The position numbers and the translations under genes are program-made. The notes under the pieces were generated by a model. The model saw only the letters and a list, made by a program, of their open reading frames with translations. It had not been told where the DNA came from and searched no databases. This document shows positions 29,654 to 36,222 of a stretch of 64,000 nt of DNA, piece by piece (positions within the stretch are counted from its first letter, which is position 1; the number at the start of each line of letters is the position of its first letter). The DNA is from Cupriavidus sp. WKF15 (lineage in GTDB: Bacteria > Pseudomonadota > Gammaproteobacteria > Burkholderiales > Burkholderiaceae), in contig NZ_CP119573.1 in assembly GCF_029278605.1 (NCBI RefSeq), positions 2,418,001-2,482,000 on the forward strand, given 5' to 3'.

Positions 29654-30352
29654 TCAGCGAGTCGCCCGCTGCTGGTAGGCAAAGGTGGCGGCAAAGACCT
29701 CGTCCACGCCGATCAACTCGCCCACGGTTCCGCCCCCGGCACGCAGCTTTTCCTGGAGCACATGCTCGGTCTCAAGCAACTGCTCGGCCTTTTGCAGTAT
29801 CTCCTGCGCACGCGCCTGCGGCACCACGACCACGCCGTTCTCGTCCCCCACCACGATGTCGCCCGGGTTCAGCGCGATGCCGCCGCATTGCACCGGCACG
29901 TTCACCTCGCCATATCCGGCCACTGCCGCCACGTTGGGCACGATACCGCGGCATACCACCGGGAAGCGGAGCCGGCGGATCTCCGTGACATCGCGACAGG
30001 CACCATCGACGACGGCGGCGACCACGCCGCGGTTCATCGCCGACAGGGTCATGTTCTCGCCCCAGAATGCCGTGCTGGCAGCCATATGCGCATCGACCAC
30101 GACCACGTCGCCGGCCTCGCTCACGTCAATGGCCTTGAGCGGCGCGGCCAGGTCGGAAGCCAGCGTGCGCGCGGTGATCGCAGGCCCGGCGAACGACACG
30201 GGTTCGAAGACCGGCCGCATGGCCGCCGACATGGCGCCGAAGCGCCCCATGCAGTCAGACAATGCGCAGGTGACAGAGTCGTACATCTGCAGCAGCCCCC
30301 GGTACGCCTCGATGACTTCGCGGGCGGGACGTTGCACGGTTGGAATCAGCAT
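29654..30352 (-). CDS. RraA family aldolase/decarboxylase-like protein (second copy)
   Basis: 232 residues. RraA-fold signatures: VTCALSDCMGRFGAM, DVVVVDAHMAASTAFWGENM and the metal/substrate motif VVDGACRDVTEIRRL. The start at 30352 uses the AAGGGGGCCGCC ribosome site. It has no enzyme partners next to it, unlike the copy at 13180, and differs widely from that copy. Pyruvate-aldolase activity on a hydroxy-oxo-dicarboxylate is the family expectation. Confidence 0.83.
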   Translation of the reverse strand: MLIPTVQRPAREVIEAYRGLLQMYDSVTCALSDCMGRFGAMSAAMRPVFEPVSFAGPAITARTLASDLAAPLKAIDVSEAGDVVVVDAHMAASTAFWGENMTLSAMNRGVVAAVVDGACRDVTEIRRLRFPVVCRGIVPNVAAVAGYGEVNVPVQCGGIALNPGDIVVGDENGVVVVPQARAQEILQKAEQLLETEHVLQEKLRAGGGTVGELIGVDEVFAATFAYQQRATR

Positions 30353-30450
30353 GGCGGCCCCCTTCTTGCTACCGCCGGGCGGCAGTAGCGGCTGTGATCC
30401 TGTCATCCAGCATAGGCAAATAGCCGCGCCCTGATAGCGCCAGGTACCGC

Positions 30451-30570
30451 TCAGGGGAGGCGGGCCAGCAAGCGCTCACGCAAGGTCGGCGGCAGCACCA
30501 GCCTGCCCTTGCCGTCGACAGCGCCGGGATCGAAGATCTCGGCAACTCTGCCTTGCAGGATTCCGGTCAT
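30451..30570 (-). CDS. Small 39-codon ORF translationally coupled to the HPt gene
   Basis: Encodes MTGILQGRVAEIFDPGAVDG followed by a basic, leucine-rich end (KGRLVLPPTLRERLLARLP). The ATG overlaps the HPt stop (ATGA at 30567-30570), and a good GGAGCAGGTGA ribosome site lies inside the HPt gene. That arrangement, and its place as third gene after the response regulator and HPt, argue for translation. No family recognised. Confidence 0.55.
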   Translation of the reverse strand: MTGILQGRVAEIFDPGAVDGKGRLVLPPTLRERLLARLP

Positions 30571-31229
30571 TCACCTGCTCCGGCAATCAGCATGGCGTGG
30601 AATTCGCGGGCGGTCGGCGTGAAAATCGCGGCCACCGCCCCCGCCAGCCCGGCATCGCCGCTGCGGGCTGCGTTCTCCAGCCTTTGCGAGAGCCGCTGAA
30701 AGCCCTGGCAGTCGGCAAGGTGTGCCGCTGCCTTGACGCGGTGCGCCACGCTGCCCAGGCTTTCCAGGCTGTCGCCTTCCGCCTGCAGCCTTTCGAGGTC
30801 GGATTCCGTTGCGGTCGCCAGCGCCTGCACCAGTTCGGCGGCAAGTGCGGGGTCGCCAAAGGTCTGGCGCGCAATGGCATCGGCCAGGCCAGCGCGCTCG
30901 CTGCCTGAAATGGCCACGTAGCCGTGCCTGGCCAACAGGCGGAATACGGCTTCCTCGGTGACTGGCTCGGCCAGAACATCGTCGCAGAAGTCCGGCTGCG
31001 CCTGGCCTACGCAGACCAGCAGCGCTCCATCCCGGCGTGCGCGCTGCAGCAACGACGTGGCGACTATGTCCGGCGCGCCGACGATCAGGCGAGGCACGGC
31101 GGCGGCGAGTACCGCATCGGCCTCGGCAGCCGTCACGCATTGCGCCGACAAGCCCGCGTCGCCAAGCCATTGCGCCAGCAACTCGCTCCAGGCGCTGCCC
31201 GACTGGGCCAGGACGAATGCATCAGGCAT
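30567..31229 (-). CDS. Stand-alone HPt phosphotransfer protein with degenerate receiver-like N-terminus
   Basis: 220 residues. The C-terminal ~100 residues form an HPt domain with phospho-accepting H163 in VAHRVKAAAHLADCQG. The first ~105 residues resemble a response-regulator fold (VLAQSGSAWSELLAQWLGDAG..., LIVGAP, LLVCVG) but lack a clear DD...D...K active site. It likely shuttles phosphate between the REC domains of the two nearby hybrid kinases and the BvgA-like regulator. It lies 12 bp after the regulator gene in one operon. Confidence 0.8.
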   Translation of the reverse strand: MPDAFVLAQSGSAWSELLAQWLGDAGLSAQCVTAAEADAVLAAAVPRLIVGAPDIVATSLLQRARRDGALLVCVGQAQPDFCDDVLAEPVTEEAVFRLLARHGYVAISGSERAGLADAIARQTFGDPALAAELVQALATATESDLERLQAEGDSLESLGSVAHRVKAAAHLADCQGFQRLSQRLENAARSGDAGLAGAVAAIFTPTAREFHAMLIAGAGE

Positions 31230-31241
31230 GGCAGTCCTTTG

Positions 31242-31865
31242 TCACCCGATGGCGATATGGTGCCGCCGGGCGAAATCGATCACATCGACCAGCGAACGCG
31301 CGCCCAGCTTTTCCATGATGCGGGTCTTGTGCGTACTGACGGTCTTGTTGGAAATGAACAGCACCTCGCCAATCTGCTTGTTGGACATGCCCTTGGCCAG
31401 CATCTGCATGATCACCAGCTCCTTGTCGGACAGGCTGCCCAGCCGGCGCGCCTCGTCCAGGTCTTCGGCGCGTCCGTTGCCAACCTCCGGCATGACCGAG
31501 TAGCCGGCCAGCACGGATTCCACGCAGCGGACGATCTCCGGCAGCTCCTGGGTCTTGCTGACATAACCATTCGCGCCGGCCTGCCGGGCACGCGGGGCAA
31601 AGGTGCTCTGGTCCTGGCCCGAGATCACCAGGACGCGTACGTTCGGCTGGATCGCCTTGAGCCGCGGGATGACATCCAGACCGCTGATGCGCGGAATGTC
31701 CAGGTCGAGGATCACGACATCGGGCGCATACTGGCGCACTATCTCGATGGCAGCCTGCCCATTGTCCGCCTCCAGGACATGCGTCACGCCGAGGACCTGC
31801 GACAGGTGCGTCTTCAGCACGACCCGCACTGCGGGGTGGTCGTCGACGATAAGGATTGTGACCAC
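31242..31865 (-). CDS. LuxR-type response regulator, BvgA/EvgA-like
   Basis: 207 residues. Receiver domain with D54 in VILDLDIPRISG and the acidic pair in ILIVDDHPAV. The C-terminal LuxR/NarL HTH is LSDKELVIMQMLAKGMSNKQ, then IGEVLFISNKTVSTHKTR. It starts with GTG preceded by GGAG. It forms the output of a phosphorelay with the neighbouring HPt protein and two hybrid kinases. A GGAAATTTCC palindrome 100 bp upstream, repeated in the kinase promoter, is a candidate binding site. Confidence 0.92.
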   Translation of the reverse strand: MVTILIVDDHPAVRVVLKTHLSQVLGVTHVLEADNGQAAIEIVRQYAPDVVILDLDIPRISGLDVIPRLKAIQPNVRVLVISGQDQSTFAPRARQAGANGYVSKTQELPEIVRCVESVLAGYSVMPEVGNGRAEDLDEARRLGSLSDKELVIMQMLAKGMSNKQIGEVLFISNKTVSTHKTRIMEKLGARSLVDVIDFARRHHIAIG

Positions 31866-32090
31866 GCAAGCACTCCATCTCTAATGGCATTGCCCGCTGA
31901 TGGCATTCGCAGGCATTTATTGTCTGGCGCATCATTGTGTTCAGCATTTTTCCTCACGGGGGCAGGAAATTTCCGAGTGCCAGTACGACTTTTCCCGATT
32001 CGGCGCCAAAAGCACGGTAGGTACCGCGACGCGCACCTGTGCATCATGTGGGCCGGCGATGCCCTGCGCACGGTCACCTCATGATGCGCC
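31866..32090. promoter_or_regulatory. Promoter region of the response-regulator operon
   Basis: 225 bp, lower in GC than flanking genes. It contains GGAAATTTCC at 31965-31974 and an ACAATAAATG -10-like stretch nearer the GTG on the minus strand. Confidence 0.5.
31965..31974. promoter_or_regulatory. GGAAATTTCC palindrome, copy 1
   Basis: Perfect 10-bp palindrome in the context CAGGAAA-TTTCCGA, 100-109 bp before the response-regulator start. The same 10-mer lies between the two kinases (34250-34259). Confidence 0.55.
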
Positions 32091-34121
32091 CTAACGCGCC
32101 CACCGGGCAATGCAGGCACGCAGGTCCTCCACGTGCACAGGCTTGAACAGGCATGCGTCCATGCCCGCCTCCAGACATTGCCGGGCGACATCGGTACCGA
32201 CCGATGCCGTCAGCGCGACGATCGGCACATCGGCATTGGCGTCCGGCCTCGCGGCCCGGATCCGGCGCGCCAGCTCGAAACCGTCCATGCCGGGTAGCTG
32301 GCAATCCGTGAGCACTAGTGCAAACGATTGCTGCCTCAGCAGTTCCAGCGCTGATTCTGCGCCAGGCGCCAAGGTACAGTCCTGACCCAGCATTTCCAGC
32401 TGGCGGCGCATGATGACCTGGAATGGCAGGTAATCCTCCACCAACAGAATGGCCTTTCGCGCGCCGAGCGGTTCGATCGGCGCAGGCTGCGGCACGGCCG
32501 CTTCTCCGGTCGCAGGCGCTGATACGGGCTCAGCCACCGGCAACGTCACGCACAGCGAGACGGTGGTACCCGTGCCAGGCGCGCTGTCGAGCGTAAGCGT
32601 GCCGCCCATGCCCTGAGCCAGACGCCGGCAGATCGCCAGGCCCAGCCCGCTGCCGCCGAAGCGGCGCGAAATGGAGCTGTCCGCCTGGGAAAACGGTGCA
32701 AACAGCTGTTCCTGCTGCGCGGGCGGGATGCCGACACCGGTATCGGCAACGCTGAGCGCCACGCGCTGGCGCTCGCCCAGGTCTTCCAGCAATGCCAGCC
32801 GCACCGTGATGCCGCCCTGTGCCGTGAACTTGACCGCATTGCCGATCAGGTTGAGCAGGATCTCCTTGAGCCGCGTGGGATCGCCGAGCAAGGCCGGGGC
32901 GATGCGCGGATCGGCGTCGAACTCGAACGCCAGCCCCTTGGCTGTGACGGCGGGCCGGTGTACCGCCATCACGGATTCCACAAGCGCGCGCGGCTCGACC
33001 GGCAGCGATTCCAGCTCCAGTTGCCCGGCCTCCAGCCGGGAGTAATCGAGGATACCGCCAAGGATCTCCATCAGCAAACGCGCGGCATTGTCGGCCAGGG
33101 TGACCTCCGCGGCTTGCTGCGCGCTCATCGGGCTGCCGCGCAGCAATTCCAGCGCACCGATGACGGCGGCGAGCGGGGTGCGGATCTCATGCGTCATGGC
33201 GGCCAGGAAGCGCGCCTTGGCCTGTGCCGCCTCTTCCGCCGTGGCACGTGCCGCCGCCAGCGCGGCGAGCTGGCGGTGTTCGTCCGTGGCATCGCCGGCA
33301 TAGCCGCTCCAGCGCAGCTGGCCCGATGCGCTGCGCACGGGTGCGCCCACGAACAGCCTCAGCCAGCGGGTTTCACCCTCGACCAGGATGCGCAGCTCGA
33401 ACTGGGCCGCCGACTGCGCGGCCGCGGAGCGGCGCAGAGCCTCTGCCATTTTCAGCCTGTCGTCGGGCAGTACCGACGCATACCGCCCGTCGACCACGGC
33501 AAGCAGCCGCTCGGCGGACCAGCCGCGGTACCGCTCGGCCTTGGCAGAGAAGTACGAGAACCAGTGCCGGCCGTCGGGATCGGCGCAGAGCTGGAACGAC
33601 GCCACCGGCAAGGCATCGGCGATTTCGTCGAGCACGCGCTTGGCATCGTGTGCGGCCTGTTCCGCGGCGAGCCGGTCCGTGATGTCGATCGTTGCGGAGA
33701 CGGTGCCGGCCTGGGCGCCATCCGGCAGGCGCAGCGGCTGGGTGGCGAACAGCAGGTCGTGCCAGACGCCGGCGGCATCCCGCACGCGCAAGGTGGCGTC
33801 GACACGCTGGCCGGACGCCCGGGCTTGCTCGATCGGCGGCGTCACGGCGGCGATGATATTGCCCGCCACCCCGGCCTCCTCCATGGTCCGCCCCAGCATT
33901 TGCGCGCGGCCGGTTCCAAGAAATGTCTCCAGCGCCGCGTTGATCACGACAAAACGCCCACCCTCGTCGCGCGCGGCGATCGGGCAGGGCGCGGCGTCGA
34001 CAATGGCGGCCAGCACATCGCGCTGGCCGCCCAGCGATCGCAGGCGCCGGTACATATGAAGCAGGCAGGCACCCATCAGCACCAGGCAGGCTGCCAGCAG
34101 GCCGGTCAACGCAGTCGGCAT
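32091..34121 (-). CDS. Hybrid sensor histidine kinase (PAS-PAS-HisKA-HATPase-REC)
   Basis: 676 residues. One N-terminal membrane helix (about 4-23) and no periplasmic domain. Two PAS domains (about 36-150 and 165-285) follow, then HisKA with H311 in MTHEIRTP and an ATPase with NAVKFT, DTGVGIP and GGSGLGLAI. The C-terminal receiver has D606 in LTDCQLPGMDG. No HPt domain, so the relay must continue through a separate HPt protein. The start at 34121 has GGAG six bases upstream. It is divergent from a second hybrid kinase. Confidence 0.9.
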   Translation of the reverse strand: MPTALTGLLAACLVLMGACLLHMYRRLRSLGGQRDVLAAIVDAAPCPIAARDEGGRFVVINAALETFLGTGRAQMLGRTMEEAGVAGNIIAAVTPPIEQARASGQRVDATLRVRDAAGVWHDLLFATQPLRLPDGAQAGTVSATIDITDRLAAEQAAHDAKRVLDEIADALPVASFQLCADPDGRHWFSYFSAKAERYRGWSAERLLAVVDGRYASVLPDDRLKMAEALRRSAAAQSAAQFELRILVEGETRWLRLFVGAPVRSASGQLRWSGYAGDATDEHRQLAALAAARATAEEAAQAKARFLAAMTHEIRTPLAAVIGALELLRGSPMSAQQAAEVTLADNAARLLMEILGGILDYSRLEAGQLELESLPVEPRALVESVMAVHRPAVTAKGLAFEFDADPRIAPALLGDPTRLKEILLNLIGNAVKFTAQGGITVRLALLEDLGERQRVALSVADTGVGIPPAQQEQLFAPFSQADSSISRRFGGSGLGLAICRRLAQGMGGTLTLDSAPGTGTTVSLCVTLPVAEPVSAPATGEAAVPQPAPIEPLGARKAILLVEDYLPFQVIMRRQLEMLGQDCTLAPGAESALELLRQQSFALVLTDCQLPGMDGFELARRIRAARPDANADVPIVALTASVGTDVARQCLEAGMDACLFKPVHVEDLRACIARWAR

Positions 34122-34249
34122 CGGAAGCTCCATCGCGAAAGGAACACGCAGGGAACACGCAGGACAATGATAGCGTTGTGCGGTGCCTTTCCCGACGCAC
34201 CGGCGACCGGCAGGCACTCGCCTCGGCATGGGCGGCTCACAAATAAATA

Positions 34250-34259
34250 GGAAATTTCC
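34250..34259. promoter_or_regulatory. GGAAATTTCC palindrome, copy 2
   Basis: Perfect 10-bp palindrome within TAGGAAA-TTTCCGC, in the AT-rich gap between the divergent kinases. The left heptad reads TTTCCTA on the opposite strand, which resembles the BvgA heptad consensus as I recall it. It could serve both promoters. Confidence 0.6.
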
Positions 34260-34344
34260 GCATATAAACTCAGACGATTCAGAAACAGCAGCGAGTCAGG
34301 CATCCATAGAGTGTGTAGAGATCGCGCACCGCGGCCGCAACGCC

Positions 34345-36222
34345 ATGCAGCGCGGTCCTCCATGCCCGTTGCCTGCACCCTCGATGCTGTCCGCCCTGCC
34401 CCCGCTAATCTTCTGGCTGGCCATGTGCCTGCCACTGCTGCTCGCGTCCGCGCTGCTTGCTGCGCGCCTGCGCGTGCTGCGGCGCCGGCTTGCACGCAGC
34501 CAGGCGTCCGCGGCAAGGCTGCGGCAGCGGCTGGCGCTTCATACGGCAGTGCTGGACAGCATCCCGCAGCCCGTCTACGTGCGCGACGCCGATCAGCGGC
34601 TCATTACGTGCAACCGTCGCTACGAGGAACTGGTCGGGGCTTCGCTGGCCTCGCTGCGCGGCCAGCCTCCGGACGCCCCCGAACAGCTGGCAGGCGTGAT
34701 CGAGGACATCGAGGCGCTGTCGGAAGACTATCGCGACGTCATTGCTTCGGGCCGCCCGCTCAACAAGGACCGCTGCCTGCACATCCACGGAGCAAAACGG
34801 CACGTGCTGAACTGGGTCGCGCCATTGCCCGGCCCTGGCGAGGCGGTGACCGCGCTGGCGGGCGGCTGGGTGGACCTGACCGAGCGCCACGACATGCTGG
34901 CGCAACTGGCCGAAGCCAAGGCCCGTGCCGAAGCGGCCAGCCGTGCCAAGTCCACCTTCCTCGCTTCGGTCAGCCATGAAATCCGGACGCCGATGAATGC
35001 CGTGGCCGGCATGCTCGAGCTGACCCTGGAACGGCCTGGTTTGTCCCCCGACGACCGCCGCATGCTTTCCATCGCGCATGATTCAGCGCTGGCACTGCTG
35101 GCGCTGATCGATGACATTCTCGATCTGTCGAAGATGGAAGCCGGCAAATTGCGCATCCATCCCGTCCCCACAAGCCTGCCGGGACTGGTGGACGAAGTGC
35201 TGCAGATGCTCGGGCCAGTGGCCGCGCAGAAGCCATTGCCGCTGGTACCGGTGATCGATGCGGGCGTCGCGCCCGCGCACAAGATCGACCCGCTTCGCTT
35301 CCGGCAGATTCTCGGCAATCTGGTTGCCAACGCTATCCGCTTTACCGACCAGGGCGAGGTACGCGTGCGCCTGCGGGGCGGCCCGGTGCACGCGGGCCGG
35401 CAGGAAATCGAACTGACAGTCTCCGATACCGGCATCGGCATTGCCCGGGCCGACCAGGCCCGCCTGTTCCAGGCGTTCGAGCAGGCGCACGACCGCTCGC
35501 GTCCCCAATCCGGCGGTACCGGACTGGGCCTGGCGATCTGCCGCCGCCTGGTCGCGGCCATGGGAGGCCGCATCCGCCTGGACAGTGAGCCCGGCTCCGG
35601 CACGCGCGTGCAGGTCAACTTGCGGCTACCCACGGCCTGCGCGCCAGCGGCTCGTGCATCTTCCGCGCCGCCTGACTGCGCTGCGGCCACCGCTTCCCTG
35701 CATGTCCTGGTTGTCGACGACCATGTCCCCAACCGCCTGCTGCTGAAGTGGCAGCTCGAACACCTGGGCCATCGTGTCGACACGGCCGCCGACGGTTGCG
35801 AAGCGTTGGCACGGCTGGTCACGCCCGAGCCCGGGCAGGCCGATCCGTTCGACCTGGTGGTCTGCGACTGCGCCATGCCTGTCATGGATGGACTCGCGTT
35901 TGCACGGGCGCTGCGCGAGCGCAACGACACACTCGCACGCTTGCCGTTGATCGGCTGCACCGCCAGTGCCGTGCCCGAGGATCACCACGCCGCGCTACAG
36001 GCCGGCATGGATGGTGTACTGGTGAAACCCGTCGGACTGCGGGCGTTGGGCGAGGCTGTGCGCACTTATGCATGCGCAGGCCGCCGTCCTGACGCTTCCA
36101 CGACTGTGCCGCTGCCCTGGCCTGCCAGCCAGGCGGACCCGCTGCCCCCGGCACCCGGGTCCGACGGATGGTGCGAGGTCTGCCACGCCATGAATGTGCA
36201 GTGCGACCGGTTCCGGCAGTAG
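34345..36222 (+). CDS. Hybrid sensor histidine kinase (PAS-HisKA-HATPase-REC) with C-terminal CxxCH tail
   Basis: 625 residues. A membrane helix (PLIFWLAMCLPLLLASALLAA) near the N-terminus, one PAS domain (IPQPVYVRDADQRLITCNRR), HisKA with H211 in SVSHEIRTP, an ATPase with DTGIGIA and GGTGLGLAI, and a receiver with D508 in VCDCAMPVMDG. After the receiver, about 40 residues run to an odd tail with CEVCH (C610, C613, H614) and a further Cys. No HPt domain. The start is uncertain (34345 or 34384; neither has a good ribosome site). It is divergent from the other kinase and probably shares its HPt and regulator. Confidence 0.88.
   Translation: MQRGPPCPLPAPSMLSALPPLIFWLAMCLPLLLASALLAARLRVLRRRLARSQASAARLRQRLALHTAVLDSIPQPVYVRDADQRLITCNRRYEELVGASLASLRGQPPDAPEQLAGVIEDIEALSEDYRDVIASGRPLNKDRCLHIHGAKRHVLNWVAPLPGPGEAVTALAGGWVDLTERHDMLAQLAEAKARAEAASRAKSTFLASVSHEIRTPMNAVAGMLELTLERPGLSPDDRRMLSIAHDSALALLALIDDILDLSKMEAGKLRIHPVPTSLPGLVDEVLQMLGPVAAQKPLPLVPVIDAGVAPAHKIDPLRFRQILGNLVANAIRFTDQGEVRVRLRGGPVHAGRQEIELTVSDTGIGIARADQARLFQAFEQAHDRSRPQSGGTGLGLAICRRLVAAMGGRIRLDSEPGSGTRVQVNLRLPTACAPAARASSAPPDCAAATASLHVLVVDDHVPNRLLLKWQLEHLGHRVDTAADGCEALARLVTPEPGQADPFDLVVCDCAMPVMDGLAFARALRERNDTLARLPLIGCTASAVPEDHHAALQAGMDGVLVKPVGLRALGEAVRTYACAGRRPDASTTVPLPWPASQADPLPPAPGSDGWCEVCHAMNVQCDRFRQ

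Follow-up and report, generated by a model that had tools for sequence, protein, structure and literature searches.

Two hybrid kinases, one response regulator and one free HPt protein form a probable split BvgAS-type phosphorelay in Cupriavidus sp. WKF15

Introduction

How would two hybrid sensor kinases, each ending in a receiver with no histidine phosphotransfer (HPt) domain, pass a phosphoryl group on to a response regulator? This question is raised by a gene cluster at positions 30451-36222 of a 64,000-nucleotide stretch of the three-contig Cupriavidus sp. WKF15 genome (contig NZ_CP119573.1, positions 2,418,001 to 2,482,000). The whole stretch is called the window here, and coordinates without a locus label refer to it. 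In our judgement the cluster is probably a split BvgAS-type four-step phosphorelay with a free HPt protein between the kinases and the regulator. A preliminary description of the sequence had proposed a relay of this kind, and the domain anatomy, the comparative layout and published split systems support this proposal.

A split layout of this kind has been published before, for Bordetella petrii, with BvgS1 (Bpet4469), an independent HPt (Bpet4470), BvgA (Bpet4471) and BvgS2 (Bpet4472) (PMC2572626, 2008), and for Cupriavidus metallidurans CH34, whose bvgSA locus (Rmet_5710, 5713, 5714, 5724) has the same set (PMC2864759, 2010). Another paper calls Bpet4470 a periplasmic domain (PMC5045587), a label that fits neither PMC2572626 nor the predicted fold of the homologue in B. 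petrii BT 1 9.2.

Results

Two kinases without HPt domains and a BvgA-like regulator

HK1 (32091-34121, minus strand) was assigned by Pfam and a kinase tree to class I (BvgS2-type), with a transmembrane segment (TM) in the order TM-PAS-PAS-HisKA-HATPase-REC, and HK2 (34345-36222, plus strand) to class II (BvgS1-type), with the order TM-PAS-HisKA-HATPase-REC; the naming of the classes after the published BvgS1 and BvgS2 rests on gene order and domain content. Pfam gave no Hpt match at E <= 1 in either kinase and found no periplasmic SBP_bac_3 domain, in agreement with the preliminary description, which had both kinases ending in a receiver without HPt and lacking a periplasmic domain. The acidic pair, Asp, Thr and Lys were all present in the aligned HK1 and HK2 receivers.

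The regulator RR-A (31242-31865, minus strand; 207 aa, GTG start) is a BvgA/EvgA/RocA1-like protein with REC and GerE domains (Pfam), and its receiver catalytic residues were likewise intact in the alignment. Its closest solved structure was EvgA and its closest NCBIfam models were FimZ and EvgA, both with scores below the model cut-offs. RR-A is 94% identical to its counterpart in the genome G016, 87% to that of Cupriavidus yeoncheonensis, 60% to the B. petrii homologue and 46% to that of Pseudomonas aeruginosa PA7. HK1, RR-A and the HPt gene are codirectional, and HK2 is divergent from HK1.

A free HPt protein with a predicted pseudo-receiver

The separate 220-residue HPt protein (30567-31229, minus strand) is encoded 12 bp after RR-A. 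Its Pfam Hpt score was 21 bits, below the cut-off, and the AlphaFold model (mean pLDDT 91.3) and its fold matches gave a receiver fold for residues 1-105 (30915-31229) and an HPt fold for residues 108-220, within the segment that we delimit as the HPt domain (residues 106-220; 30570-30914). The HPt half is a helical bundle with an invariant His in the predicted fold and the alignments. His163 (codon 30741-30743), the residue named in the preliminary description and the expected phospho-acceptor, was invariant in 13/13, 17/17 and 11/11 aligned rows.

The receiver-like half, already described as degenerate, lacks the acceptor Asp, the acidic pair, the Thr/Ser and the Lys of the predicted REC fold. 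By-eye mapping placed Q9 and S10 at the acidic pair, G51 at the Asp, G75 at the Thr/Ser and E88 at the Lys, with Pro89 kept. The HPt homologue of B. petrii BT 1 9.2 (L081) was likewise predicted to consist of a receiver-like and an HPt part. The confident predicted fold thus points to a free HPt protein that carries a receiver-fold domain without phosphotransfer residues. In titles and abstract openings of a literature in which subscription journals were mostly outside the scope, a pseudo-receiver on such an HPt protein was not found.

Comparative layout and kinase classes

Relatives of the HPt protein were called with an A1-derived model and Pfam. Among the 60 genomes searched, 24 (the own genome included) had a match, all of the same genus, and there was no match in the 24 other genera sampled. 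The lowest-ranking matches fell on short HPts or, in G001 and G031, on frames as large as a kinase. The closest named relatives of both the HPt protein and the regulator were from Cupriavidus. Across Cupriavidus, Achromobacter and B. petrii, the regulator-HPt pair is repeatedly accompanied by one or two hybrid kinases that lack an HPt, and synteny is conserved in more than 10 species. HK2 runs divergently from the pair in the mapped Cupriavidus modules except for a few, where it is convergent. Two kinases lie beside the pair in the window, G016 (L040), Achromobacter pulmonis (L076), A. insolitus (L077) and B. petrii (L081). The same holds for A. aegrifaciens (L104), but its kinases come from another branch. 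C. metallidurans CH34 (G030, its region identical to NC_007974.2 over 18,001 bases) has both kinases farther apart, the class I kinase about 8 kb away.

In the kinase tree (66 rows, 64 different), HK1 fell into a clade of six rows (support 100/99) with kinases of G016, G030, B. petrii and Achromobacter, among them L064 and L081_8002. HK2 fell into a clade of 26 rows (support 100/98) that includes the second kinase of those same species, among them L056 and L081_11413. These clades, common to the same species, suggest that the two-kinase set may be old and that the class I kinase may have been lost later. The idea that HK1 was recently inserted between HK2 and the regulator was not upheld, because the tree puts HK1 in a class that lies beside or near the same regulator-HPt pair in Alcaligenaceae and CH34.

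SBP_bac_3 domains remain in L053 and L056, both class II relatives, and in L052, which is class I-like. Most of the Pseudomonas relatives scanned had the HPt within the kinase protein (kinase-REC-HPt); by Pfam, the PA7 locus, which from its gene order we take to be roc1, encodes SBP_bac_3-PAS-kinase-REC-HPt, REC-EAL and the regulator in this order. Two modules were broken: in G034 (L042), which has a truncated usher, the regulator is split over two frames, and in G029 (L054), which has no usher, only the HPt end is left, with no adjacent regulator.

A conserved promoter-like element and BvgA-type sites

The regulator-HPt pair is preceded by a promoter-like element (31934-31996, minus strand) with two GGAA repeats 21 bp apart, the second within CTCGGAAATTTCC, followed by CACAAT. 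This block, with the second GGAA-like repeat in CTCGGANNNTTC, was kept gap-free in 16 of 16 aligned RR-A upstream rows (15 distinct), and CACAAT stood at a fixed spacing in the same rows; we infer that it is the -10 box. C. yeoncheonensis was absent from this alignment, yet has the block. The preliminary description had the HPt gene cotranscribed with the regulator. The 12-bp gap favours this view, but the pair has a promoter-like element of its own, which is conserved also in genomes without HK1.

The window holds exactly two copies of the BvgA-type inverted site GGAAATTTCC: one lies 100 bp upstream of RR-A (31965-31974), the other between the divergent HK1 and HK2, 86 bp before HK2 (34250-34259). 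For the window, 0.01 occurrences were expected, and none of 100 shuffles reached two. In the 7.4-Mb genome the site occurs eight times. The intergenic HK1/HK2 copy is exact in C. yeoncheonensis and has one mismatch in G016. GGAAATTTCC is close to TAAGAAATTTCCTA, the published primary BvgA site at Pfha, where BvgA dimers lie 22 bp apart (PMC7250471); the likeness to the BvgA-type heptad is one of sequence match only.

Within 300 bp of the regulator, 16 of 22 RR-A loci had the site at <=1 mismatch (11 exact), five of the six others had a variant of it, and the downstream control was 0 in every group. These and the following site counts cover placed regulators; unplaced were 5/13 loci of the paralogue RR-B with an HPt gene (below), 2/5 of Alcaligenaceae and 7/12 of Paraburkholderia. 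Among the unplaced RR-B loci with HPt, L191 had an exact site, and L188 and L193 had one-mismatch sites.

A second regulator and its neighbouring HPt gene

The same genome (G000) encodes RR-B (G000:C2:900864-901481; L171:9865-10482), a paralogous regulator that is 60% identical to RR-A and keeps the acceptor residues in its sequence. We surveyed 36 genomes of the genus, the own included. RR-B occurred without the RR-A module in 12 of them, with a short HPt gene beside it in 12/12, and together with the module (broken in G029 and G034) in 14, with an HPt gene beside it in 0/14; seven had neither. Three genomes fall outside this split: in G030 the two HPt genes are both present, G020 carries two such regulators with an HPt beside only one, and G022 has the module, with RR-B not found at the cut-off. 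The 14 HPt-less RR-B form one clade (support 99/96), which indicates one loss event, not 14. The close relative L053 has an HPt at the other of these two loci, so that G020 represents a second, independent loss. GGAAATTTCC lay within 300 bp of the regulator in 0/14 HPt-less RR-B loci versus 6/8 placed RR-B loci with HPt.

Candidate targets in the genome and in relatives

Besides the two copies in the cluster, two of the genomic GGAAATTTCC sites belong to copies of the same repeat (L241, L244; the frame beside it is presumably transposase-like), two lie in coding frames (L239, L240), one stands before a Usp gene (L238) and one before a haemagglutinin-like fragment (L237, L245). The fragment (L245:3843-4766), of a family that we take to be a haemagglutinin-like repeat, is start-less and probably a remnant. 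Its site, about 80 bp upstream, was judged to be there by chance. A 22-bp tandem site pattern gave zero matches in the genome regulon search; this pattern was badly chosen because the repeat spacing here is 21 bp.

Ushers were found in 37/60 genomes, the own included, and in 9/149 loci plus the window scanned (eight distinct places; many loci were short or had no regulator). The only usher match of this genome (L154; G000:C1:1704500-1717500) belongs to an operon that also holds a FimA-type gene and, upstream, a regulator with 29% identity to RR-A. Missing there is the HPt-bearing kinase cluster that accompanies the ushers of L157, L158, L159, L166 and L167 (in L157, the HPt of the local kinase scored 24.0 bits, just under the cut-off). 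The full promoter matrix had no match in 17 usher regions. The local regulator and the lack of a matrix match argue against RR-A control of this chaperone-usher operon, which we keep as a lead only.

Among the relatives, A. pulmonis and A. insolitus have a site between the class II kinase and the following gene, which in A. pulmonis is an EAL-domain gene (Pfam). The A. pulmonis module is beside this EAL-domain gene (L076:13485-14333) and a YadA-like adhesin gene (L076:15624-20222), and a pair of sites spaced by 22 bp (14898, 14920) lies near them. In A. deleyi (L079), GGAAATTTCC stands about 80 bp before a gene (L079:2823-9095) for a 2091-aa protein with an ESPR type V secretion signal, and the B. 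petrii module adjoins a chaperone-usher fimbrial operon (L081:13505-20621). The sites and the adhesin or fimbrial genes beside these modules point weakly to surface adhesion as a possible ancestral output.

Outside the cluster, an RraA-like gene (29654-30406, minus strand) lies directly downstream of the HPt gene. The same position holds a gene of cluster c3 (about 190 aa) in 13/24 mapped loci, and there was none in the mapped part of the window.

Discussion

We consider it likely that HK1 and HK2 belong to one split BvgAS-type relay. Both would act as inner-membrane PAS sensors, each autophosphorylating its HisKA histidine and transferring the phosphoryl group to the Asp of its own C-terminal receiver. 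The two receivers would then feed the single free HPt protein at His163, from which the group would reach Asp54 of RR-A. Phosphorylated RR-A would bind the GGAAATTTCC-type inverted sites before its own operon and between HK1 and HK2, and the system would thus be autoregulated; in some relatives the regulator may also bind before surface-adhesion genes. The pseudo-receiver, predicted to be unable to accept a phosphoryl group, would most likely serve as a fixed docking surface, like the RcsD-ABL domain for RcsB, which is the nearest precedent for the putative dock or brake of the preliminary description. An ABL domain fold was not among the fold matches listed for the HPt protein, a list that does not exclude ABL.

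Several observations weigh against this relay. Among the mapped Cupriavidus modules, an adjacent HK1 is present in just two, those of the window and of G016 (L040); the HK1 search of the 60 genomes used a strict threshold (E <= 1e-100) and scored at most 19 candidates per genome. Between the regulator and HK2 of C. yeoncheonensis, whose HPt is 90% identical to that of the window, only a 273-bp HK1 remnant of 83% identity is left (L070:9542-9814), which indicates that an HK1-type kinase was deleted there. Long branches were flagged in the kinase tree, both B. petrii kinases included. The HK1 and HK2 receivers are 36% identical, and that of HK1 is 38% and 40% identical to the receivers of two other kinases of the genome (L196 and L197), so that these values give no sign of a common specificity for one HPt; there are also other HPt-less hybrid kinases. 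RR-B, a regulator of the same subfamily, has no neighbouring HPt gene. An exact site was present within 300 bp of the regulator in 0/3 placed Alcaligenaceae and 0/5 placed Paraburkholderia, and the site and regulon searches of the genome found no convincing adhesin target in this strain. That two sensors use one HPt is therefore supported by comparison only: the convergence proposed in the preliminary description stands insofar as two HPt-less kinases are tied to one HPt-regulator pair, and not as an exclusive claim for these two kinases. Its single output is not established, because RR-B is present without an HPt gene beside it.

The rarity of HK1 next to the module and the fragment in C. yeoncheonensis show that the module can persist without this kinase; on comparative grounds, HK1 is dispensable to it. 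HK2 alone might thus drive the HPt-regulator pair, with HK1 as an accessory acting through hetero-oligomers or a phosphatase activity in the style of RetS/GacS or PvrS/RcsC, or feeding another HPt. The mapped Cupriavidus modules usually consist of HK2-regulator-HPt with no HK1 beside them, the two receivers have diverged to the extent given above, and in P. aeruginosa PA14, PvrS and RcsC are antagonistic on one regulator, with the three free HPts not involved (PMC3842833). We nevertheless regard this explanation as rather unlikely. HK1 is under purifying selection (ratio of nonsynonymous to synonymous substitution rates, dN/dS, 0.16 versus G016) and has an intact receiver, the same site occurs in the HK1/HK2 intergenic region, and the class I kinase is directly upstream of the regulator in A. 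pulmonis, A. insolitus and B. petrii and about 8 kb off in CH34.

The output might also be branched, with the single HPt phosphorylating both RR-A and its HPt-less paralogue RR-B. The acceptor residues of RR-B, the survey counts (0/14 with the module versus 12/12 without it) and the second, independent loss in G020 agree with such sharing, and two-hybrid tests show the free HptA of P. aeruginosa binding to RocA1, RocA2 and RocR3 (PMC12051241). The 14 HPt-less RR-B, however, represent one loss, they have no GGAAATTTCC near the regulator, and G030 has kept both HPt genes. The data agree equally well with an HPt that both regulators use and with an RR-B that has become uncoupled from it, and we hold a branched output to be doubtful. 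A wider proposal, in which the HPt protein is a hub that is fed by two membrane sensors and serves RR-A and RR-B, with the pseudo-receiver setting which receiver docks, is at present quite speculative and improbable. It is hardly credible that unrelated two-component genes came together here by chance or are in decay, since, despite the broken modules of G034 and G029, the synteny and the promoter element are conserved and the cluster genes are under purifying selection (dN/dS 0.06-0.23 versus G016).

The split relay that we favour resembles several known systems. It shares with B. petrii an independent HPt, a BvgA-like regulator and two hybrid kinases that lack both an HPt and a large periplasmic domain, and the kinases of BT 1 9.2 (L081) fall into the same two classes. 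In the L081 locus, the class II kinase lies downstream of the HPt gene in convergent orientation, with fimbrial genes beside the module; here HK2 is divergent from HK1 and such genes are absent. CH34 has the same four components, but its class II kinase keeps two SBP_bac_3 stretches (L056) and its class I kinase is distant, whereas HK2 has none and HK1 is adjacent. Classical BvgAS shares the regulator subfamily and the inverted GAAATTTC site type; there, the HPt and periplasmic domains lie within a single BvgS (PMC2572626), in contrast to the separate HPt and the lack of SBP_bac_3 here.

The Roc system of P. aeruginosa comprises RocS1/RocS2/RocS4, HptA and RocA1/A2/A3; the two-hybrid partners of free HptA are one hybrid kinase and three regulators (PMC12051241). 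The system is similar in its homologous regulator, BvgS-type kinases and a free HPt linked to a hybrid kinase and several regulators. It differs in that the PA7 kinase is HPt-fused with SBP_bac_3 and has a REC-EAL neighbour, whereas the module here has no REC-EAL gene; the receiver search of the window from 25 to 40 kb yielded only RR-A and the two kinases, and no RocR-like partner. The domain before the HPt of RcsD is reported to bind RcsB and to inhibit RcsB phosphorylation (PMC7418988). An extra domain precedes the HPt here as well, but RcsD is a large membrane protein with kinase-like domains, unlike this small protein without a membrane stretch.

A 2025 review called the mechanisms that activate bacterial pseudo-receivers a mystery (PMC12632262). 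A pseudo-receiver that sits on a free HPt protein makes this open question testable on a small scale: it adjoins the phosphotransfer site within a small protein, and it can be removed. If the hub proposal is true, one HPt pool per cell would decide whether cells switch, and a genome would need one complete regulator-HPt pair, the second regulator using the HPt of the first. The cluster ties two-component genes of environmental Burkholderiales to the BvgAS switch and shows that the split form, in which kinases of two classes accompany a single regulator-HPt pair, turns up in Cupriavidus as well as in Achromobacter and B. petrii.

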